Assembly (NCBI RefSeq): GCF_900100255.1
Contig: NZ_FMTS01000003.1
Coordinates: 124,001-188,000 of the forward strand
DNA length: 64,000 bases
Direction: 5' to 3'
From: Asticcacaulis taihuensis
Lineage (GTDB): Bacteria; Pseudomonadota; Alphaproteobacteria; Caulobacterales; Caulobacteraceae
In this document: positions 26,171 through 38,312 of the stretch, piece by piece
Layout of the letters: each line of letters begins with the position of its first letter
Numbering within the stretch: the first letter of the stretch is position 1
Made by a program: the position numbers and the translations under genes
The notes under the pieces: model-generated
Seen by the model: the letters and a program-made list of their open reading frames with translations, nothing else
Told to the model about the DNA's origin: nothing
Databases searched by the model: none

Positions 26171-26245
26171 CTGTTTTCCTTTGCGAGGTAATGCGTGACC
26201 TATATAGTCCGTTATGCGCCAAAAAACGACAGGGGATATTCGCCG

Positions 26246-27997
26246 ATGAAGAGAGTTTTGCTGTGCGGACTGGCGTTTGTGGCTTTCAGTGCCCAGGCGA
26301 AAACCCCGGCGGCGGATATGGTTTTCCGCAACGCTTACGTCTACACGGTTGATGCAAAGAACAGTGTGGCCCAGGCACTGGCGGTAAAGGATGGCCGGGT
26401 TGTCTATGTCGGCGATGAGGCTGGCGCGAAAGTCTTTACTGGCCGCAAGACGCAAGTGATCGATCTCAAGGGGCGTATGGTCATGCCGGGCCTGATCGAC
26501 GGCCATATGCACCCGCAATCGGGCGGCCTGCGGATGTTGAGCTGTAATCTCAACTATGAAAGCCTGACGATTGCGGAATTTCAGGCGCGCATTCAGAAAT
26601 GCGTCGATGAGGATAAAACGTCCGGCCCGAATGACTGGCTGGAGGTGATCAACTGGTTCGAGCAGGGCGCGAAGCCAGCGGGCACGGTCCTGACCCGTGC
26701 GGCGCTCGATGGTGTGAAAACCACCCGGCCGATCAAGGTCCATTCGTCCTTCGGCCATTCCAATCTGACCAATACACGCGGGCTGCAACTGGCCGGCATC
26801 ACTCGCGAAACACCAGACCCAAAGGACGGGGTGATTGTGCGCGATACGGCCGGTGAGCCGACCGGCCTTTTGCAGGACGCGGCGCAGGATTTGGTGGACA
26901 GGCTGGTGCCGCCGCCTTCGGTTGAAAAGAATTACCAGGCGACGCAACTGGCGCTGAAAGCCATGCGCGAGCAGGGGATTACCACCTTTCTCGACGCCTA
27001 TACCGATATCGAGACCATGACGGCCTATCGCACGGTTTCCAAAGAGGGCCGGCTGACGGCGCGGGCGCATTTCGCCGTGCTGATCGATTCCCCGGCGGAT
27101 TATGATGCTGACAAGGCCATTGCCGAGGTGCTGAAGGAAAAGGCCGAATTTGAGCAGACACCGGTGGGCGCCAGGCCGATCATGAAGGTGGATACCGCCA
27201 AGCTGTTCCTCGATGGCGTCTATTCGGCGCCGGCCTTTTCGGCGGTGATGGTCGAGCCCTATTTCGAGAATGGCCGGCCGGGGCATAATTACGGACCGAA
27301 GCCCTATTTCTCGCAAGCGCAGCTTGATGACACCCTGATCAAACTGGCGGCGGCGGGGCTCAATCCGCACATGCACGCCGATGGCGATGGCTCGGTGCGT
27401 ATGGGGCTGAATGCCGTCGAGGCCATGCGCAAGGTGCATCCGGCCGACGATATCCGTCCGGCCATCGCCCATGACGAGATTGTCGACCCGGCCGATTACA
27501 AACGCTATGCCGAGGTTGGCGCCTTGCCGGTTCTGTCCTTCCAGTGGGAGCGGCCGTCCATCGATATCATGCAGTCGATGCCGGCACTGGGGCCGGTACG
27601 GTCGGCCCTGATGGAGCCGGCGGGCCTGCTGGAGATATATGGCGCACGCATTGTCTATGGTTCGGACTGGCCTGTGGACGCGCTCGATGAATGGCTGGCC
27701 CTTCAGATTGCCGTGACGCGCCAGGCGATCGGCGAGGACGCTGTGAAATATCCGGACCGGCTGGGCATCGATCCGGGACTGACGGTAGCACAGGCGGTGC
27801 GGGCAATTACGCTCAATGCGGCCTACAGCCTGAGGCAGGACAAGGAGACCGGTTCGCTGGAAGCCGGCAAGTTTGCCGACCTGATCGTGCTTGATCGCAA
27901 TCTGTTCCAGATCAAACCGGAAGAGATCGGCGGCACCCAGGTGCTGCTGACCATGGTGGGCGGGAAGATTGTGTATGAGGCGGAGGACTTGAAGTAA
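26246..27997 (+). CDS. Secreted YtcJ-type amidohydrolase
   Basis: A 583-residue metal-dependent hydrolase of the amidohydrolase superfamily, YtcJ/Amidohydro_3 branch. A signal peptide ([18 protein letters not shown]) is followed by the metal motif GHMHP, with His at 87 and 89. A metal-bridging Lys could lie in [13 protein letters not shown], a His in [11 protein letters not shown] and a catalytic Asp in YGSDWPVD. The start follows AGGGGAT. Substrates in this group are varied N-acyl or cyclic amide compounds and cannot be predicted. It is divergent from the ABC exporter and ends at a long palindrome. Confidence 0.88.
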
Positions 27998-28218: not shown

Positions 28219-31011
28219 TCAGTACTTGTAGGTGATTTGCAGGAAGCCTGAGCGGCCGAGACCTTCGTACCAGTTGGCATTATAGTAAGGGTAGCTGGTC
28301 CAGGTGGAATCATAGGGCGGGTTGGTATCGAACAGGTTGTCGATGGCCAGAGACACCGTAACCTTGTCGTTGAGGTCGTACTGCGCTGAGGCGTTATACA
28401 GCATGTAGGCTTTCACCCAGGCATCCTCGTCATAGTTCGGCAGGCGGCTGGTATAGTTGCCGTCGATGTTGAACTTCCATTTGCCGGTCTTCAGGTTGAC
28501 GCTGGCCGACGCCTTGTCGCGCGGTATGTAATAGTCGGAATCGACCGCCAGCTTGTTGATGGCCGGGTCGCCGACATAGCGGGTATAGTCATGGTCGATG
28601 ACATGGGTATAGCTGCCGGACAGTCCGAGCACACCGATCGGCGTATCGAAGCGCAGGTGGCCGGCGAAGTCGTAACCCGAGGTTTCTTCCTTCGCCACGT
28701 TGATCGGGCTGACGAACACCTGGGTGATGTCACCGCCGGAATCACGCGTGACGCGGGCAATGGCGTCCTGGCAGGTCGGGGTATTTATGTCCTGCAGGCC
28801 ATTGCGGCATTCGCCTTCAGTGCGGGTCAGGTTGTTGATGACCAGATCCTCAACCACGCCTTCCATCTTGATCTTGAAATAGTCAACGCTGACATCGAAC
28901 ATGCGCGATGGCGCCCAGACGAAGCCGGTATTGAAGCTTTCGCTGGTTTCCGGTTCCAGGTCGCGGTTGCCGCCGGTCTTTACCGAGATGCGCGAGCCGC
29001 GGCCGCAATCACCGGGATAGTCTTCCGGCGTGTCGTTGTAACAGGTGTAGTAGTCGGTGGCGCGGCCTTCTTCGTAACCGATGCCCTGATAGACATAGTT
29101 CAGGTCCGGTGCACGGAAGCCAGTGCCCCAGGCGGCGCGCAAGAGCAGGGTCTTGAGTGGGCGGTATTCCAGGCCGAGATTATAGGTGCTCTGGCCGACG
29201 CTGTGACCGGCATAATCATAGTGATCGTAACGGGCGGCGGCGCTGGAGGACAGGGTGGAGAGCAGCGGAATGCTGAACTCGACGCCGGTGGCGTAGTGGT
29301 TGCGGTGGCCCTTCGAGATGAAGTCCGTCCAACTAAAGAAGTGCGGCGAGGCGGCTTTCGGATCGGTGCCCTGGTCGTAGTCCTGGCGGCCGCCCTCGAT
29401 GAGGAAGTTGAAGCCGACGGGGCCGGCCGGCATCTGGAACAGGTCACGCGTGCCGATCTGGGCCGTCAGTTCGGTGACCGAGCTCTTCGGGTGATAGACG
29501 GCGTTTTCGGCGATCGAGGCGTATTCTTCCGGCGTCAGCGGGGTGTAGAAGCGCGTTGGGTCGGCATTGAAGACCGGCAGGCCGTAGCCGTCATCCTCGC
29601 CCAGGAACTGCGGATCGGTATCCATGCCGAGCTTCGGCCCCAGGAACAGGGCATTGGCCTTTTCGACATTAATCAGCGGGAAGATGACCTCGGCAGTATA
29701 GGCGCTGTAATTGAGGGCGACTTCGTAATTCCACTTATCGTCGGCGCCAAAGGTGCCGCGCACGCCCGGCGTGAAGGTATAGGTGGTCGAATTGACCTGG
29801 CGCTTGGCCTTGTCCAGCCCGCCCATTTCTTCCGGTGTGAAGATACGATACCAGTTGTCGGTGCCGCCGGTGAAGCTGTTGTAGAAGTCGCCGACATCGT
29901 TGCCGGTTTCATCCTGATAGCCCCATGAGGTCGGGCGCTTCAGAAGTTCGAGGCGGCTGAGGCCGAACTGCACGTCGGCGAAGAGGTGCAGAGTATCGGA
30001 CACATCATAGGTGAAGGAGCCGACCAGGTTGCCGGCGTGACGTTGCGACTGGACCGTCTTGTAGCCGATGGCGGATTTACTGCCGCAGTAATTGCCGAGA
30101 ATGGTGTCGCCATCGCCATAATAGGGATCGGTGGCCAGGTGTGTGGTGCCGCCGTTGGTGGAGGCGGTGGGGGCGCAGTCGGCCTCGGTGGCGTCGATGG
30201 CATAGACGTCGTAATCGACGCGCTGCCAGTTGGTGACCGGGGTCTGGTAGGCCGGATCGGGCGCGTCGAGCGTCGAATCCTGACGTTTGCGCTGATAGCC
30301 GTAGATCGGATCGGTCCACAGAATTTCACCGCCAAAGACGCCGTGGAACTTGCCGGCGTCGAAGCCCGATGAATAATTCAGGCGGTGCGATTGCCCGCCA
30401 CCCTGTTCGGTCCAGCCATAGCGGTAATCGAGCGTGGAGCCGTCATAGCGTTCCTTGAGCTTGAAATTGACCACACCGGCCAGGGCGTCAGAGCCATAGA
30501 TGGCCGAGGCGGAGCCGGACAGAATTTCGATCTGGTCGACCATGCCCAGCGGAATATTGGAAATGTCGGTGAAATTGCCATTGCCGTCATACGGCATCGG
30601 GAAATCGGAAATGCGGCGGCCATTGACCATGACGAGCGTATGGTTGGGGCCGAGGCCGCGCAGATCGACCTGTTGCGCGCCGGGCGAATAGTCGGCGGCA
30701 TTGCCCGACTGCATCGATTCGGTTTCGCCGCTGTTGGCGGTGACGGTCTTGAGCACGTCCGGCACGCTGGCATAGCCGCCGGCGCGAATCTGGTCGGATG
30801 TGATCACGGTGACAGGGGCCGGGCCCTCCTTCTGCGTGCGCGGGATGCGCGAACCGAGGACGACGACGGTCTGGGGTTCTTCATCCGCGGGCGCGGCGGT
30901 TGTGGTGTCCTGCGCGCTTGCCACGCCATGAAGGCCATAAAGGCTGCATCCGGCAAGCAGGGTCAGCTTGCAGAGACGCCCAAGGGTTAAATAAGGCCTG
31001 GTTTTCTTCAT
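28219..31011 (-). CDS. TonB-dependent outer-membrane receptor
   Basis: A 930-residue receptor. A signal peptide ends near GVASAQ. A TonB-box-like QTVVVLGSRI segment and plug domain (EGPAPVTVITSDQIRAGGYA; GLGPNHTLVMVNGRRISD) precede a long beta-barrel with the C-terminal aromatic signature FLQITYKY. ATG 31011 follows AAGGAGCG. The plug sequence is of the type often tied to peptide or polymer uptake in this order. It is divergent from the cyanophycinase-peptidase fusion gene with a 211-bp shared promoter region, so the ligand is plausibly a peptide or cyanophycin fragment. That ligand is inference only. Confidence 0.93.
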   Translation of the reverse strand: MKKTRPYLTLGRLCKLTLLAGCSLYGLHGVASAQDTTTAAPADEEPQTVVVLGSRIPRTQKEGPAPVTVITSDQIRAGGYASVPDVLKTVTANSGETESMQSGNAADYSPGAQQVDLRGLGPNHTLVMVNGRRISDFPMPYDGNGNFTDISNIPLGMVDQIEILSGSASAIYGSDALAGVVNFKLKERYDGSTLDYRYGWTEQGGGQSHRLNYSSGFDAGKFHGVFGGEILWTDPIYGYQRKRQDSTLDAPDPAYQTPVTNWQRVDYDVYAIDATEADCAPTASTNGGTTHLATDPYYGDGDTILGNYCGSKSAIGYKTVQSQRHAGNLVGSFTYDVSDTLHLFADVQFGLSRLELLKRPTSWGYQDETGNDVGDFYNSFTGGTDNWYRIFTPEEMGGLDKAKRQVNSTTYTFTPGVRGTFGADDKWNYEVALNYSAYTAEVIFPLINVEKANALFLGPKLGMDTDPQFLGEDDGYGLPVFNADPTRFYTPLTPEEYASIAENAVYHPKSSVTELTAQIGTRDLFQMPAGPVGFNFLIEGGRQDYDQGTDPKAASPHFFSWTDFISKGHRNHYATGVEFSIPLLSTLSSSAAARYDHYDYAGHSVGQSTYNLGLEYRPLKTLLLRAAWGTGFRAPDLNYVYQGIGYEEGRATDYYTCYNDTPEDYPGDCGRGSRISVKTGGNRDLEPETSESFNTGFVWAPSRMFDVSVDYFKIKMEGVVEDLVINNLTRTEGECRNGLQDINTPTCQDAIARVTRDSGGDITQVFVSPINVAKEETSGYDFAGHLRFDTPIGVLGLSGSYTHVIDHDYTRYVGDPAINKLAVDSDYYIPRDKASASVNLKTGKWKFNIDGNYTSRLPNYDEDAWVKAYMLYNASAQYDLNDKVTVSLAIDNLFDTNPPYDSTWTSYPYYNANWYEGLGRSGFLQITYKY

Positions 31012-31222
31012 GGAACGCTCCTTGTTGATGTAACGGTGTTCGCGGATGCAAATGGGATAAATGTGCAAATATAGTTTCAAAGTGCACTATTTTTGCGGAA
31101 ACATGATGAAAAGTGACATCATTGTGTCAAACTTGGCAATCAAATTGTTGCCATAAGGTCAATTTGCGATCACAGTTGTGGTGATATGTTGCATTTGCGC
31201 ACTAAACCACACGGAGCCCGAT
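31012..31222. promoter_or_regulatory. Shared divergent promoter region, candidate operator
   Basis: AT-rich 211 bp between the receptor and fusion genes. It contains the interrupted inverted repeat GTGCA-N15-TGCAC at 31063-31087, in front of the receptor, and a TTTGCGCAC half at about 31194-31202 near the fusion start. An Lrp/AsnC-type regulator encoded 2 kb away is a reasonable candidate binder, but the site is not a clear consensus match. Confidence 0.3.
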
Positions 31223-33166
31223 ATGCGTCACCTGATTCTTGCCTTAAGTCTCTCATTCGTCACCTTAAATATGGGTAATATTGCCGAGGCTAAGGCGTGG
31301 AAGAGCGGACCAGGTTACAAAACCTTCGTGATCGGTGACGAGGCGAAGGCGACCACCGATCCGGTAACGGCTGGTTTCCTGCTGAGCGGCGGCGGCGACT
31401 GGGCCTATGATGCCTTCCGCTGGTTTACCGCCCATGCCGGACATGGCCACATTGTGGTGCTGCGGGCTTCGGGCACCACGGAATCGCAGGATGAGTTCTA
31501 TAATCAGGTAAAGGGCGTCAGTTCGGTGCGCACCTTCCTGTTCACCGACCGCAAGGCGTCCTACGATCAGAAGTTGCTGGAAGCGGTGAAGAGGGCTGAT
31601 GGCATCTTCCTGGCCGGCGGAGACCAGTCCAACTATGTGCGCATGTGGAAGGGCACGCCGCTCAATGAAGCGCTCGATGCCCACGTGGCGGCCGGCAAAC
31701 CGATCGGCGGCACATCCGCGGGGCTGGCGGTGCAGGGAAGCTGGCTTTACGGGGCCATGGATGGCGGCAGCATTACCTCACCGGAAGCCATGAAAGACCC
31801 GCTGGGTTCGGCGGTGACGATGGAAAGCGATTTTCTCCATTCCGAGTTATTGACCAATATCGTCACAGATAGCCATTTCGGTGTTCGTGACCGCTTAGGG
31901 CGTCTGATCGCCTTTGTGGTCAAATCGGAATCGCTGCGCGACGCCGATGGCAAGCGGTATGCCCATCCTCTGGTCGGCCTTGGTATTGATGAAGAAGCGG
32001 CCATGACAGTCGAGGCCGATGGCACGGCGAAGGTATATTCCAATCTCGATGGCCACGGCTGGCTGGTCCAGGGCGGTGAGGTTCACGATCTGGGGCCGGG
32101 CAAGCCGCTCAATATAAAGAATGTCAGGGTCACCGGTATTGGGAAGACCAGCACCTTCAACATCCGGACGCTGGAGGTGGGCCTGCCATCCTTCACCCGC
32201 ATCTATGATGTCACCGATGGCGTGCTGACCCAGCAAAAACACTGGTCGCTGGCTATTCATGGCGGCGCGGGTGTGATCGATCGCGGCGATCTGACGCCGG
32301 CGAAGGATGCGGCCTATCGCGCCGGTCTGGCCGAGGCGCTGGCGGCGGGCCAGGCCGTGCTAGACACCGGCGGCACGGCGCTTGATGCCGTCGAAGCCAC
32401 ATTGAAACCGCTGGAAGACAATCCCCTGTTCAATGCCGGTAAGGGTGCGGCCATCGCGGCCGACGGCAATGTCTATCTCGACGCGGCTATCATGGACGGT
32501 GGCACGATGAAGGCTGGCGCCGTGGCGGCTTTGACGCGCACGAAAAATCCGATCCTGGCGGCGCGTGCTGTGATGGACAAGACGCACCATGTGTTCCTCG
32601 CCGGGGAAGGCGCGGATGCGTTCGCCAAGTCGCAGGGGCTGGCGCAGGTCGATCCGTCCTATTTCCATACACCGGAGCGCGAGCAGATGCTGGTCGATTG
32701 GAAAAAGGATCACCAGGCGATGATCAATCCGACCCATATGTATGGCACGGTCGGCGCAGTGGCGCTGGATAGCGACGGCCATCTGGCGGCGGCTACCTCG
32801 ACCGGCGGTCTGACAGGCAAGCAGTGGGGCCGCATCGGCGATAGCCCTCTGATCGGTGCCGGCACCTATGCGCGTGACGGTGACTGCGCCGTTTCGGCCA
32901 CCGGCACAGGTGAATATTTCATCCGCGATTCCGCCGGCCGCCAGGTTTGCGACCGCGTGCGCTGGAACCATCAGGATATCGAGGCGGCGGCTCATGACAC
33001 CATCATGTCGATCGGTTCCATTGGCGGCGATGGCGGCCTGATCGCCATGGATGCCAATGGCAAGCCGGCCTTTGCCATTAATGACGTCGGCATGTATCGT
33101 GGGGCGGTATCATCCGATTCCCCCGTTATCCGAACGGCGATCTATGGCGACGAGACACTGAAATAA
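31223..33166 (+). CDS. Secreted fusion: cyanophycinase (S51) plus isoaspartyl peptidase/L-asparaginase (T2)
   Basis: A 647-residue exported protein with a signal peptide ending near NIAEA. The N-terminal half is a cyanophycinase-like peptidase: GGTSAG with nucleophile Ser165, DSHFGVRDRLGRL around 216-228 and LGIDEEAAM around 254. All three match CphB-type enzymes, which cut cyanophycin to beta-Asp-Arg. The C-terminal half, from LAIHGGAG at about 343, is an Ntn-hydrolase of the plant-type asparaginase family: DNPLFNAGKGA, autocleavage/nucleophile Thr509 in YGTVGAVA, GDSPLIGAGTYA and ATGTGE. Those enzymes split isoaspartyl dipeptides. The stop overlaps the AsnC-type start (TAATG). Confidence 0.88.
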   Translation: MRHLILALSLSFVTLNMGNIAEAKAWKSGPGYKTFVIGDEAKATTDPVTAGFLLSGGGDWAYDAFRWFTAHAGHGHIVVLRASGTTESQDEFYNQVKGVSSVRTFLFTDRKASYDQKLLEAVKRADGIFLAGGDQSNYVRMWKGTPLNEALDAHVAAGKPIGGTSAGLAVQGSWLYGAMDGGSITSPEAMKDPLGSAVTMESDFLHSELLTNIVTDSHFGVRDRLGRLIAFVVKSESLRDADGKRYAHPLVGLGIDEEAAMTVEADGTAKVYSNLDGHGWLVQGGEVHDLGPGKPLNIKNVRVTGIGKTSTFNIRTLEVGLPSFTRIYDVTDGVLTQQKHWSLAIHGGAGVIDRGDLTPAKDAAYRAGLAEALAAGQAVLDTGGTALDAVEATLKPLEDNPLFNAGKGAAIAADGNVYLDAAIMDGGTMKAGAVAALTRTKNPILAARAVMDKTHHVFLAGEGADAFAKSQGLAQVDPSYFHTPEREQMLVDWKKDHQAMINPTHMYGTVGAVALDSDGHLAAATSTGGLTGKQWGRIGDSPLIGAGTYARDGDCAVSATGTGEYFIRDSAGRQVCDRVRWNHQDIEAAAHDTIMSIGSIGGDGGLIAMDANGKPAFAINDVGMYRGAVSSDSPVIRTAIYGDETLK

Positions 33167-33618
33167 TGACCACGCGCAAGCCTGCCCCGGAACTGGACGC
33201 CATCGACCGCAAGCTGATGGCGTCATTACGTGAAAATTCGCGCCTGCCGGTGTCGCAACTGGCCACCATGCTCGATATTCCGCGCACTCAGGTCTATGCC
33301 CGGCTGGAACGGCTTGAAAACGAAGGCATTATCGACGGCTATACGGTGCGGCTGGGCCAGGCCTATTCCAAGTCCCGCCTGCGCGCCCACGTCATGATCA
33401 AGACCCTGCCGCGCCTGTGCCAGGAGGTCGAACTCAAGCTGCCGGAAATTCCGGAAGTCTCGGCCGTCTATGCCATCAGTGGGGAATACGACATCATTGT
33501 CATGGTCGAGGCGGCCGACAGCATCGAAATGAACGAACTGATCAATCGCATCGGCCTGCTCGATGGGGTGGAGCGCACTACCACATCCATCATTCTGGCG
33601 GCGAAGCTGGAACGTTAG
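33166..33618 (+). CDS. Lrp/AsnC family transcriptional regulator
   Basis: A 150-residue regulator. An N-terminal winged helix has LDAIDRKLMASLRENSRLPV and a recognition helix near IPRTQVYARLERLE. A C-terminal RAM ligand-binding domain ends in TTTSIILAAKLE. Lrp/AsnC proteins sense amino acids, and the start codon is fused to the stop of the cyanophycinase-peptidase gene. It probably responds to Asp, Arg or a related product and controls the adjoining genes; this is inferred from position. Confidence 0.93.
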   Translation: MTTRKPAPELDAIDRKLMASLRENSRLPVSQLATMLDIPRTQVYARLERLENEGIIDGYTVRLGQAYSKSRLRAHVMIKTLPRLCQEVELKLPEIPEVSAVYAISGEYDIIVMVEAADSIEMNELINRIGLLDGVERTTTSIILAAKLER

Positions 33619-34864: not shown

Positions 34865-35485
34865 ATGCCCAGTTCACCAACGGTAAAGTCCGGCTTCTGG
34901 CGTAACCAGTTGCGCCAGTGGCACTGGATCAGTTCGGCGGTTTCGCTGATGGGGCTGCTGTTGTTTTCCGTGACCGGCTTTACGCTCAATCACGCGGCGC
35001 AGATAGAAGCCCAGCCCAAGGTGACGAAGATCGAACGCCAGGTGCCGCAGACCGCCCTGGCCGGATTGGCCTCGGTGACGGCCAATGTGCCGCTGACGCC
35101 GGTGCAGGCGACAGCCATTCGTGGCGCCACCGGCGTCGATGTGCGCGGCGCCACTGTCGATGCCGATGAGGACGGAATCTATCTCACCCTGTCGGCGCCA
35201 GGCGTCGATTCGACCCTCGAAATCAGCCGTATCGACGGCCACGCCACTTATGAACGCACGGATCGTGGTCTAATCGCCGTGCTCAATGACCTGCACAAGG
35301 GGCGCCATTCGGGGCCGGTCTGGGCGATGTTTATTGACCTGATCGCCATCGCCTGCGTCGTGTTCTCCGTGACCGGTTTCGGCCTTCTGTGGCTTTACGC
35401 CCGTGGTCGCCGTGTCACCTGGCCGCTGGTCGCCCTGGGTCTGGTGCTGCCTTTCATCCTTTTCCTGCTGTTTGTTCACGCCTGA
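34865..35485 (+). CDS. PepSY-associated membrane protein of a flavin electron-transfer operon
   Basis: A 206-residue inner-membrane protein with three helices (about 20-42, 158-178 and 185-204) and a periplasmic domain between the first two. RQWHWISSA, FTLNHAA and LNDLHKGRH carry histidines placed like the heme or redox ligands of PepSY_TM proteins. It is the first gene of a five-gene operon with DUF2271, ApbE, a CysJ-like reductase and DUF4198. It probably carries electrons from the cytosolic reductase across the membrane to the flavinylated DUF2271 protein. Heme binding is inferred, not shown. Confidence 0.82.
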   Translation: MPSSPTVKSGFWRNQLRQWHWISSAVSLMGLLLFSVTGFTLNHAAQIEAQPKVTKIERQVPQTALAGLASVTANVPLTPVQATAIRGATGVDVRGATVDADEDGIYLTLSAPGVDSTLEISRIDGHATYERTDRGLIAVLNDLHKGRHSGPVWAMFIDLIAIACVVFSVTGFGLLWLYARGRRVTWPLVALGLVLPFILFLLFVHA

Positions 35486-35493
35486 GGTTTACC

Positions 35494-36015
35494 ATGACTG
35501 CCCGATTTATTGCCTTCGCCGCCGTCGCGGCCACCGGCCTGACCGCTTCCATGGCCGATGCCGGCCAGGTTGTGCTCGATATCGAAATCCCGACCCAGAA
35601 GGTTGCGGAATACCACAAGCCCTATGTCGCGGGCTGGATAGAGGATGCCGCCGGCAATCATGTCGCCAATGCCTTCCTGTGGTATGATGTCAAGAAGCCG
35701 GAAAACCGCGGCGCCCGCTGGCTGAAGGGTCTGCGCTCGTGGTGGCGCAAGAGCGGCCGTGACCTGACCTCGACCGATGGTTTCAGCGGCGCCACGCGCG
35801 CGCCCGGACGCAATACGCTGGCTCTCGATACCAATGCCTCGGCCTTCAAGGGGCTGAAGCCCGGCGCGTACAGCTTCGTCGTTGAGGCATCGCGCGAGCA
35901 GGGGGGGCACGACCAGGTCAAGCTGCCGCTGACCTGGAACCCTGCCAGGGCGGTGACCGCCAATGCCAAGGGTACAACGGAACTCGGCCAGGTCAAGCTC
36001 AGCTATAAGCCGTAA
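35494..36015 (+). CDS. DUF2271 periplasmic protein with an ApbE flavinylation motif
   Basis: A 173-residue protein. A signal peptide (TARFIAFAAVAATGLTASM) ends near ADA. DUF2271 features include KPYVAGWIED near 42 and an aromatic- and arginine-rich RSWWRKSGRD at 81-90. DGFSGAT at 95-101 fits the DxxSGAT motif on which ApbE attaches FMN by a phosphoester bond, so Thr101 would carry FMN. The protein would be an extracytosolic redox carrier. It precedes apbE with no intergenic space (TAA directly followed by ATG). Substrate could be ferric complexes, quinone or another acceptor. Confidence 0.8.
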   Translation: MTARFIAFAAVAATGLTASMADAGQVVLDIEIPTQKVAEYHKPYVAGWIEDAAGNHVANAFLWYDVKKPENRGARWLKGLRSWWRKSGRDLTSTDGFSGATRAPGRNTLALDTNASAFKGLKPGAYSFVVEASREQGGHDQVKLPLTWNPARAVTANAKGTTELGQVKLSYKP

Positions 36016-37005
36016 ATGACCCTGTCGCTGCCCGCCCTTGACCGACGCGTTGTGATCCCCGACCTGGTCGCGGAACCGCAGGCGCCTGCCGGAACGGTCC
36101 GTCATGATCTCGGCGGCGCGGCCTTCGCCACGACCTGGCGGGTCAGTATCTATGCCGAAGCCGATGCGGTCCTTATGGGGCTTAAGGCGCGGCTTCAGGC
36201 GGTGCTGGACGGAATCGACCGGGAAATGAGCCCGTACCGCATCGATTCCGACCTGACGCGCTTCAATCTGGCGCCTGCGGGCACATTCGTTTCTCTACCG
36301 GCGCGGATGATGACGGTTATGTGCCATGCACTGGCTATGGCCGAACTGACCCATGGCGCCTTCGACCCGGCTATCCTGCCGGCCGTGGAACTGTGGGGCT
36401 TCGGCGCGAAGGCGGTGCCGGAAGGCGTGCCGGATATTTCGGTCCTGCCGGCCAGCCGCTGGCGCGATCTGGTCTGGCAGGCGGAGGGCATTGTCAAGCC
36501 TGAGGGCGTGCGCATCGATCTGTGTGCTATCGCCAAGGGCTATGCCGTCGATGCCTTGATGGATCTTCTGAAAGCCGAACCGGGCGTCTGTTCGGCCCTG
36601 GTCGAGATTGGCGGCGAACTGAAGGGCTGGGGAGTACAGCCGGACGGTCTGCCGTTCTGGGTTGAAATCGAGACGCCGGTCAATGCAGTATCTGTGGCTG
36701 CCCTGTGCGACTGGGCGGTGGCCACCTCGGGCGAACAGGTACGGTCATTCGTGCATGACGGCCAGGTCCATTCGCATATCATCGACAGCCGCACCCAGGC
36801 GCCGACGCGCTCCGGCATTGTCAGCGTGACCGTATTTAATACCGACTGCTGGCGGGCCGATGCGCTTGCCACGGCCCTGGTGGTGATGGGCGAGACGCGC
36901 GCCATGGATTTCGCCGTGACGTACGATATCCCGTGCCTGTTCTGGCTGCGTGACGGGGACGGTTTTCGGGAACGGTTGAGCCCGCGCCTGGAGGACTGGC
37001 TGTGA
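36016..37005 (+). CDS. apbE: FAD:protein FMN transferase
   Basis: A 329-residue ApbE-family enzyme that moves FMN from FAD onto Thr in SGAT motifs. MSPYRIDSDLTRFN near 71, GAFDP at 114-118, AKGYAVD at 173-179, the EIGG motif at 197-200 and the HIIDSRTQAP plus DALATAL metal-site region are present. No signal peptide or lipobox is visible, although the likely target is exported; most Gram-negative ApbE proteins are lipoproteins. The gene starts directly after the DUF2271 stop and overlaps the next gene by four bases. Confidence 0.92.
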   Translation: MTLSLPALDRRVVIPDLVAEPQAPAGTVRHDLGGAAFATTWRVSIYAEADAVLMGLKARLQAVLDGIDREMSPYRIDSDLTRFNLAPAGTFVSLPARMMTVMCHALAMAELTHGAFDPAILPAVELWGFGAKAVPEGVPDISVLPASRWRDLVWQAEGIVKPEGVRIDLCAIAKGYAVDALMDLLKAEPGVCSALVEIGGELKGWGVQPDGLPFWVEIETPVNAVSVAALCDWAVATSGEQVRSFVHDGQVHSHIIDSRTQAPTRSGIVSVTVFNTDCWRADALATALVVMGETRAMDFAVTYDIPCLFWLRDGDGFRERLSPRLEDWL

Positions 37006-38312
37006 CGTCTTACCTGGATAACCTGACCGATGATCCGGTACGCTGGGCGTGGGCTGGCGTCTGGGCCGCCGGGTTTATAGCAGTTTGCCTGTGGGCAGCG
37101 TTCAAAGGGCGGCGCAAATCCGAGGTGACCAGCGAATATCTGGTGCTCTATGCCTCCCAAACCGGCCAGGCTGAGGAGATTGCCAGAGACAACGCGGCTT
37201 CACTTGCAACGGGCGGGCGTGATGCGCAGGCCATTTCCACGGATAAGGTGACGGTGGCGCAATTGCGGGCGGCGAAGCATATTCTTTGCGTGATATCGAC
37301 AACGGGCGAGGGCGATGCACCGGACGAGGCCCTGCGCTTCGAAAAGACACTGATGCGGGAAGCGTACAATCTGGCGGGCCGGTCCGTGGCGGTCCTGGCC
37401 CTGGGCGACAGCAAATATGATCAGTTCTGCGCCTTCGGTCACCGGGTTTTCAACTGGCTGGTCTCATGCGGCGCCGAGGCTGTGGCGCCGGCGATCGAGG
37501 TCGATGATCTGGATGCGGGGGCGCTGAAAATATGGCACGACCTGCTGACCAATCTTGGCGGGCAAGAGAAGGCTCACTCGGATGACGGCTTGCCGTGGCG
37601 GCTGGAGGCGCGGACACGGCTTAATCCGCAGGGTACGCATCCACTCTATCGTCTCAGCTTTACCGGCCAGACCGCCGACTGGCAGGCGGGTGATCTGGTG
37701 GAAATCACCACGCCGCTTGGCCATCGCCGTGACTATTCGATCGCCAGCCTGCCGGAAGAGGGACGGCTGGACCTCTATGTCCGTGAAGTCCGCAAGGAAA
37801 ACGGCGAACCTGGTGACGGTTCTGGCCTGCTGATCGAAGGCATTCAGGTGGGTGATAACCTGCCGCTGCGGATTAAATCGCACAAGGGGTTCCATATGCC
37901 GGAAGGCGACGGGCCATTGCTGCTGATCGGCGCCGGTTCGGGACTGGCGGGCTTACGGGCGCATATCCTTCAGGCGCAGGCGCGCAAGGTCTGGCTGATC
38001 TATGGTGAGCGCCATCCGGAGCATGACGGTGCCTTGGCCGACGAAATGAAAATCTGGCGCGACGAGGGCCGTCTGGCGCGTCTCGATCTGGCTTTTTCAC
38101 GGCCCGATGATGGCGAGGGGCAGTATGTCCAAGCAATCGTGGCGGCGAACTGTACCGATATTCCCGCCTGGTTGGGCACGGACGGTGCGATCCTGTGCTG
38201 TGGTGGTCGTGAGATGGGCCTTGAGGTCGAGCAGGCGCTGGCAGGCGCGCTCGGCCAGGCGTGGGTCGATGACGCCAAGATATCCGGGCGATATCGCCGC
38301 GACCTTTATTAA
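37002..38312 (+). CDS. Membrane-anchored CysJ-like flavodoxin/NAD(P)H reductase
   Basis: A 436-residue flavoprotein. One helix (about 15-34) anchors it. A flavodoxin domain has the FMN loop SQTGQAE at 52-58, and an FNR-type module has RDYSIAS for FAD and LLLIGAGSGLAGL for nucleotide, ending GRYRRDLY like CysJ. It should take electrons from NADPH through FAD to FMN in the cytosol and hand them to the PepSY protein. The start overlaps the apbE stop. A stand-alone sulfite reductase flavoprotein is less likely because of the anchor and the neighbours. Confidence 0.87.
   Translation: MTSYLDNLTDDPVRWAWAGVWAAGFIAVCLWAAFKGRRKSEVTSEYLVLYASQTGQAEEIARDNAASLATGGRDAQAISTDKVTVAQLRAAKHILCVISTTGEGDAPDEALRFEKTLMREAYNLAGRSVAVLALGDSKYDQFCAFGHRVFNWLVSCGAEAVAPAIEVDDLDAGALKIWHDLLTNLGGQEKAHSDDGLPWRLEARTRLNPQGTHPLYRLSFTGQTADWQAGDLVEITTPLGHRRDYSIASLPEEGRLDLYVREVRKENGEPGDGSGLLIEGIQVGDNLPLRIKSHKGFHMPEGDGPLLLIGAGSGLAGLRAHILQAQARKVWLIYGERHPEHDGALADEMKIWRDEGRLARLDLAFSRPDDGEGQYVQAIVAANCTDIPAWLGTDGAILCCGGREMGLEVEQALAGALGQAWVDDAKISGRYRRDLY

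Follow-up and report, generated by a model that had tools for sequence, protein, structure and literature searches.

A fused S51–T2 gene beside a TonB-dependent receptor in Asticcacaulis taihuensis: a candidate exported enzyme for scavenging cyanophycin

The cyanophycinase and isoaspartyl-peptidase steps of cyanophycin breakdown are both known, as the work of separate enzymes. The window analyzed here, a stretch of 64,000 nucleotides from A. taihuensis, contains one gene that seems to join a domain of each kind. The locus therefore raises the question of whether a single exported protein performs both steps, and on which substrate it acts. An earlier note on this DNA had answered that a secreted cyanophycinase and an isoaspartyl peptidase are combined on one chain.

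The gene, its parts and the predicted cleavage site

The gene is a single frame with one terminal stop (TAA, 33164-33166), which translates into 647 amino acids at 31223-33166 on the plus strand. A GGAG motif has its end 6 bases ahead of the ATG. The parts of the gene and the neighbors that matter for the analysis are as follows.

26195..27997, plus strand: Amidohydro_3 protein with an apparent signal; longest frame, start uncertain
28219..31080, minus strand: TonB-dependent receptor, divergent from the fusion gene and its conserved partner; longest frame, start uncertain
31223..33166, plus strand: S51–T2 fusion gene, 647 amino acids (P0001), from translation, Pfam, NCBIfam and motifs
31223..31291, plus strand: apparent Sec signal peptide at residues 1-23, judged by inspection
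31295..32197, plus strand: S51 cyanophycinase-like domain, residues ~25-325, from Pfam, alignment to solved structures and motifs
32198..32242, plus strand: junction, residues 326-340, in which the T2 signal peptide is gone, from comparison with unfused copies
32243..32746, plus strand: alpha part of the T2 domain, residues 341-508, with NPLFNAGKG at 400-408, from Pfam, solved homologues and motifs
32747..33163, plus strand: beta part of the T2 domain, residues 509-647, with the predicted nucleophile Thr509 and with Arg537, Asp540 and Thr560
33166..33618, plus strand: Lrp/AsnC-family regulator, whose ATG shares one base with the stop of the fusion gene (TAATG)

The domain order described in the earlier note, S51 followed by T2 in one frame, was borne out by Pfam. 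Both domains score over their cut-offs: Peptidase_S51 at residues 115-172 with 36.1 bits (cut-off 23.9), and Asparaginase_2 at residues 341-632 with 323.2 bits (cut-off 27), covering positions 1-301 of the 309 in the profile. The proposed export also agrees with the N-terminus (MRHLILALSLSFVTLNMGNIAEA-KAW), which by inspection resembles a Sec signal. The S51 half contains the motifs GGTSAG (162-167), DSHFGVRDRLGR (216-227) and GIDEE (254-258); the T2 half contains NPLFNAGKG and GTVGAVA (508-514).

The fusion is genuine. It is no assembly accident, since 15 of the 25 Asticcacaulis genomes searched (own genome included) contain a match over the full length in one frame and since dN/dS lies between 0.008 and 0.33. 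Against four relatives the ratios are 0.04-0.14 for the S51 part, 0.07-0.33 for alpha and 0.008-0.10 for beta; they are rough values because 3 of the 12 dS values exceed 1. Selection appears to hold all three parts.

The NCBIfam model PRK10226 (beta-aspartyl-peptidase) matched residues 343-641 with 265 bits. This is under the equivalog cut-off of 567, so the T2 half is not filed as this equivalog and its wider T2 membership is taken from Pfam. The best solved match of this half is 2zak, an L-asparaginase precursor (238 bits over 343-641), to which Gly508-Thr509, Arg537, Asp540 and Thr560 align. In solved T2 homologues the first residue of the beta chain aligns with residue 509 or 510 of the query, and Thr509 is therefore the predicted nucleophile. 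We take Thr509 to act in this role, Arg537 and Asp540 to bind the substrate and Thr560 to stand in its usual place. The same genome contains another, unfused T2 gene at C8:1084886, which is 45% identical.

Self-cleavage of T2 is predicted at Gly508/Thr509, between alpha and beta. The computed masses are 51.4 kDa for residues 24-508 (S51-alpha) and 14.2 kDa for residues 509-647 (beta). Because this cut would fall inside the T2 domain, S51 should stay covalently attached to the alpha chain. The earlier idea that self-cleavage releases the two enzymes from each other is wrong in this respect; where Thr509 lies was the reason to reject enzyme release by T2 autoproteolysis.

The explanation that we prefer, and regard as rather probable, is an exported bifunctional enzyme that scavenges cyanophycin or some beta-aspartyl polymer much like it.

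Distribution, fusion history and junction

The fusion occurs within and beyond the genus. Among relatives with a name, A. benevestitus (87%) and Asticcacaulis sp. AC466 (84%) are the best matches. Outside Asticcacaulis, where the frames of the fusions were checked, it was found in other families of the order (G042, G110, G125, G135 and G166, among 299 genomes searched) and in another class (G360, among 398 genomes of the phylum); the genomes searched in the order and the phylum are samples and not complete groups. Two of the 25 genus genomes, G007 (L104, L105) and G008 (L018, L106), have the S51 and T2 halves in different locations, and the S51 gene of G007 (L104) is still located beside its TonB receptor. 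A close S51 match is absent from 8 of the 25, among them G010, which has a weak match.

Eleven unfused S51 loci were fetched. A T2 gene is adjacent to S51 in seven of them (G076, G282, G244, G607, G480, G418 and G422) and is missing within the fetched stretch in four (L104, L112, L113 and L119, from G007, G199, G154 and the paralogue of G022). A T2 frame is also found beside S51 in G623 and G706. The Bryobacterales locus L026 contains S51; the T2 half and nine window neighbors, the TonB receptor and Lrp included, were unmatched there within 16.8 kb. The adjacent pairs in 7 of 11 unfused loci, together with the repeated fusion described below, lend further support to the earlier reading that one chain performs both successive steps. 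The fusion is not essential, since unfused loci can lack T2 (4 of 11), two species have the halves apart and 8 of 25 genus genomes have no close S51.

Two further copies were seen in G022. L119 (G022:C1:2139000-2157000) holds an S51 paralogue of ~50% identity, which is present in three genus genomes (G017, G022 and G024). L090 (G022:C1:2632000-2644000) is a second fusion copy; its frame is broken near the N-terminus, and the receptor beside it is in pieces only.

The trees of both halves require at least four changes of the fused state. Grouping all fused rows in one clade is rejected (p-AU 6e-8 for S51, 4e-6 for T2), and with it a single fusion event for all fused copies. One clade is not rejected for the fused T2 rows without G360 (p 0.074); with G360 and G166 taken out of the fused S51 rows, the p-AU of one clade is 0.357. 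The G360 fusion falls within a T2-tree clade of four adjacent-gene pairs from genomes of the other class (100/100). Because G360 sits among adjacent-gene pairs in this tree, the simplest reading is that at least two fusions took place. The separate halves in G007 and G008 closely resemble the fused copies found in the genus and could reflect either fission or the retention of separate genes; both are compatible with the trees.

The junction was compared with the unfused copies. Where the N-termini of unfused S51 and T2 copies can be read they are hydrophobic and signal-like, and that of L118 resembles a lipoprotein signal; the T2 of L115 is not among the readable ones. In the fusion the C-terminus of S51 continues straight to the start of mature T2 and the T2 signal is absent. 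In the 19 fused copies (L088-L103, L108, L117 and the window) we compared the number of residues between the S51 tail (GVL or similar) and the HGGAG of T2.

These data bear on an alternative that is compatible with our preferred explanation and that we consider possible, if somewhat doubtful: the fusion may mainly provide co-export and equal dosage of two uncoupled enzymes, and clipping between the domains may occur in the periplasm. The separate apparent signal peptides of the unfused copies, where readable, and the separated halves in G007 and G008 fit this view. The junction argues against it, because it is short and measures exactly 10 residues in 17 of the 19 fused copies, the window's included; the exceptions are L103 with 15 residues and L100 with 28. 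Sixteen of these 17 belong to one broad lineage, but the seventeenth, the separately fused G360 copy, has the same length.

The S51 half, its neighbors and the likely substrate

In the earlier note the S51 half had been called a cyanophycinase. Alignment to 3en0 and 7uqv identifies a Ser/His/Glu triad of Ser165, His218 and Glu257. The aligned residues of this half are Gln135 (the end of GGDQ), Ser165, Asp216, Ser217, His218, Arg222, Arg224, Arg227 and Glu257, and the CphB residues Gln101, Ser132, Asp172, His174, Arg178, Arg180, Arg183 and Glu201 all have counterparts among them. By motif and by alignment to solved structures, the catalytic residues are thus complete in the S51 half as well as in the T2 half. 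The available passages of PMC3235067 describe Gln101, Asp172, Gln173, Arg178, Arg180 and Arg183 of CphB as critical beside Ser132; five of these six pocket residues are kept here and Gln173 is replaced by Ser/Thr. The same passages report that the extracellular CphE of P. alcaligenes keeps the CphB pocket residues except for Gln173, which is Thr223.

The motifs GGDQ, D[S/T]HF..R.R..R and G.G[I/V]DE are conserved in all 30 S51 copies (19 fused including the window, 11 unfused). The same is true of GTSAGL, which is preceded by Gly in 27 copies and by Ala in 3. The only solved structures that match the S51 half with E < 1e-8 are the cyanophycinases 7uqv, 3en0 and 7uqw (E 1e-9 to 3e-9). The other eight structure matches, which include amidotransferases, peptidase DR_1070 and Peptidase E, have E values of 0.0085-0.066 (Peptidase E 0.02).

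Two results set this half apart from the known cyanophycinases. First, the TIGR02069 cyanophycinase model matches residues 86-271 with only 88.4 bits, under its cut-off of 126.6. In a scan of ten S51 proteins of other genomes the cut-off was passed by L038, L039, L046, L051 and L071 and missed by L026, L064, L076, L079 and the G360 fusion L108 (100 bits). Second, an S51 tree was built from 37 rows, in which E. coli PepE is the sole outgroup and the MccG clade is outside the sampling. In it the S51 half belongs to a separate clade, which has 15 rows (97/100) and a stem 1.85 changes per column long. At a 90/92 fork this clade meets a weakly supported group (88/72) that contains CphE-like proteins and longer ones; the depth of the join is unsure because the PepE branch is very long (7.05). 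The names CphB-like and CphE-like are labels by length, apparent signal and motif, and five proteins so labelled were scored against TIGR02069. The S51 half falls within neither of these two groups and branches deeply on its own, next to the CphE-like proteins.

The description as a cyanophycinase hence holds for motifs, triad and pocket residues, and not for the model score and the position in the tree. Because the TIGR02069 cut-off was missed, we file the S51 half as a separate S51 subfamily, neither CphB nor CphE, which would work like a cyanophycinase. Its specificity could differ, given the missed cut-off and the long-stemmed clade of its own. With the S51 half in its own deep clade and below the cut-off, we infer cyanophycin as the substrate from the residues and the context.

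Part of this context is the TonB receptor. A related receptor is located upstream of S51 and divergent from it in 27 of 29 fetched loci, with 43-93% identity (the window left aside; one genome contributes two copies, L090 and L091). The receptors score 726-1758 bits in 26 of these 27 loci; L090 has pieces only, the best with 149 bits. Two loci have no related receptor: L109, which is uninformative because it is near a contig end, and L119, the G022 paralogue, within the fetched stretch. All three T2-only loci (L105, L106 and L118) lack a related receptor. Against this receptor, nothing else in the window's genome scores above 98.2 bits in a single stretch, compared with 2195 for the receptor itself; what stands beside S51 is therefore a particular receptor lineage and not any receptor.

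The Lrp/AsnC regulator possibly senses released amino acids. Of 18 fused loci, 7 have a relative of it downstream, no more than 140 bases away and on the same strand, and 2 have it 1.3 kb off on the other strand; it is absent in 9. A relative of the Amidohydro_3 protein is near S51 in 14 of the 18 fused loci and in none of the 11 unfused ones. None of the seven neighboring proteins scanned is arginine-specific. At 34865-38312 (plus strand) the scan found PepSY_TM_like_2 and DUF2271, followed by proteins that by eye are ApbE-like and flavodoxin/FNR-like; this cluster has the appearance of flavin-based electron transfer, and parts of it are conserved in close relatives.

A cyanophycin synthetase was found in none of the 32 genomes that carry this S51 (E up to 1e-100); 1 of 14 control genomes matched. 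IadA was not found in the window's genome. Since 27 of 29 loci have the receptor next to S51 and none of the 32 genomes has a synthetase, scavenging fits better than storage, and a storage role was judged unlikely. Both enzymes on one chain, an adjoining TonB receptor and the lack of a synthetase in the 32 genomes make this a candidate for a scavenging locus, a name that it would earn if enzyme and receptor act on cyanophycin. Solid cyanophycin granules would be unable to pass a TonB receptor, so that a soluble form of the polymer or an attack outside the cell would be needed; the polymer may be cut outside the cell.

The same results can be read in another way, which we consider unlikely: S51 may cut a different beta-aspartyl or Asp-rich peptide, such as the isoaspartyl peptides of dead cells, and T2 may finish the products. 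The divergent S51 clade, the TIGR02069 score under the cut-off and the absence of a synthetase from the 32 host genomes are in keeping with this reading, as is the promiscuity of the assayed IaaA and IadA from cyanophycin clusters that is described in the available parts of PMC10206079. However, GGDQ, D[S/T]HF..R.R..R and the glutamate of GIDE/GVDE occur in every copy inspected, 19 of them fused and 11 unfused, and these motifs include pocket residues that are critical for cyanophycinase activity according to the passages of PMC3235067 cited above. That the S51 half is catalytically dead and helps T2 by binding or scaffolding is very improbable, because the full triad, the pocket residues and an S51-part dN/dS of roughly 0.04-0.14 stand against the one point in its favor, a Pfam S51 match limited to the core segment 115-172.

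Proposed function and comparison with known systems

In the preferred explanation, a bifunctional scavenger, the neighboring TonB receptor would carry soluble polymer or oligomers into the periplasm. There the S51 serine hydrolase would take beta-Asp-Arg dipeptides off the chain, and T2, matured by the cut at Gly508/Thr509, would split them into Asp and Arg. The working protein would consist of the S51-alpha chain (51.4 kDa) held together with the beta chain (14.2 kDa), with the two active sites still joined. From what is typical of the families it is probably a dimer. A structure prediction with six sequences gave a pLDDT of 41.4 and a pTM of 0.37; because of these values it was set aside.

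A more specific version, which we think has a small chance of being right, is a two-protein cyanophycin cassette. The receptor would import polymer or oligomers, and the periplasmic S51–T2 protein, with its sites joined, would pass beta-Asp-Arg on without release and yield Asp and Arg. The 10-residue junction shared by separate fusions would then reflect this geometry, and a new exported S51 subfamily would be defined.

The repeated fusion and the tie to a particular outer-membrane receptor are good genomic evidence for one shared pathway. As far as sequence can tell, the S51–T2 gene and its matching outer-membrane importer suggest a self-contained system for eating cyanophycin. If the substrate is cyanophycin, such alphaproteobacteria would be feeding on nitrogen stored by other bacteria, and the protein would offer a one-enzyme route to Asp and Arg that is of practical interest for nitrogen recovery. 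The locus also points to a candidate S51 subfamily that is open to direct testing. Among the open full-text matches listed, which were judged by titles, abstract starts and passages, none describes an S51–T2 fusion; subscription papers and protein databases are outside this scope, and the domain order may already be in domain databases.

Ben Hania et al. have reportedly dealt with gene clusters for cyanophycin scavenging. Among the nearest known systems are the cyanophycinases. The S51 half resembles the extracellular CphE of Pseudomonas, as described in the available passages of PMC3235067, in being an apparently exported S51 serine hydrolase with the same triad and pocket residues and with a hydroxyl residue at the Gln173 position (Thr in CphE, Ser/Thr here). 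Unlike the fusion, CphE is a single enzyme encoded by a gene of 1260 bp, and these passages do not mention T2; its sequence is outside our S51 tree. CphB (3en0) shares the catalytic and pocket residues and presumably the fold; the S51 half matches it only at E ~1e-9. In contrast to the fusion, CphB is intracellular, is a single enzyme and has Gln173. The entries 7uqv and 7uqw are titled simply 'Cyanophycinase'.

MccG, the microcin C immunity protein, is likewise an S51 family member and acts on an isoaspartyl compound. It is compared here by its description in the available parts of PMC9239234, being outside the tree; its third triad residue is Asp, whereas that of the S51 half is Glu. The T2 half resembles enzymes of the IaaA/EcAIII type (2zak) in its full-length T2 domain and in the predicted Thr nucleophile and substrate-binding Arg and Asp. 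It differs from them in that it follows S51 on one chain and is apparently exported.

At the level of gene clusters, the available parts of PMC10206079 report that in 45 of 52 genomes without cphA1 the genes for cyanophycinase and isoaspartyl dipeptidase are clustered. These scavenging clusters resemble our locus in that both enzyme types occur together without cphA1; they differ in consisting of separate genes, and a search of the main text finds neither 'fusion' nor 'fused'. For Citromicrobium a TonB transporter is described near a cyanophycinase gene, and cyanophycin is proposed as the substrate of the transporter (PMC3400609, in the parts available). A term search of the main text of that report found no asparaginase or peptidase, unlike the fusion locus, but the two loci are alike in having a receptor gene and a cyanophycinase-type gene as neighbors.
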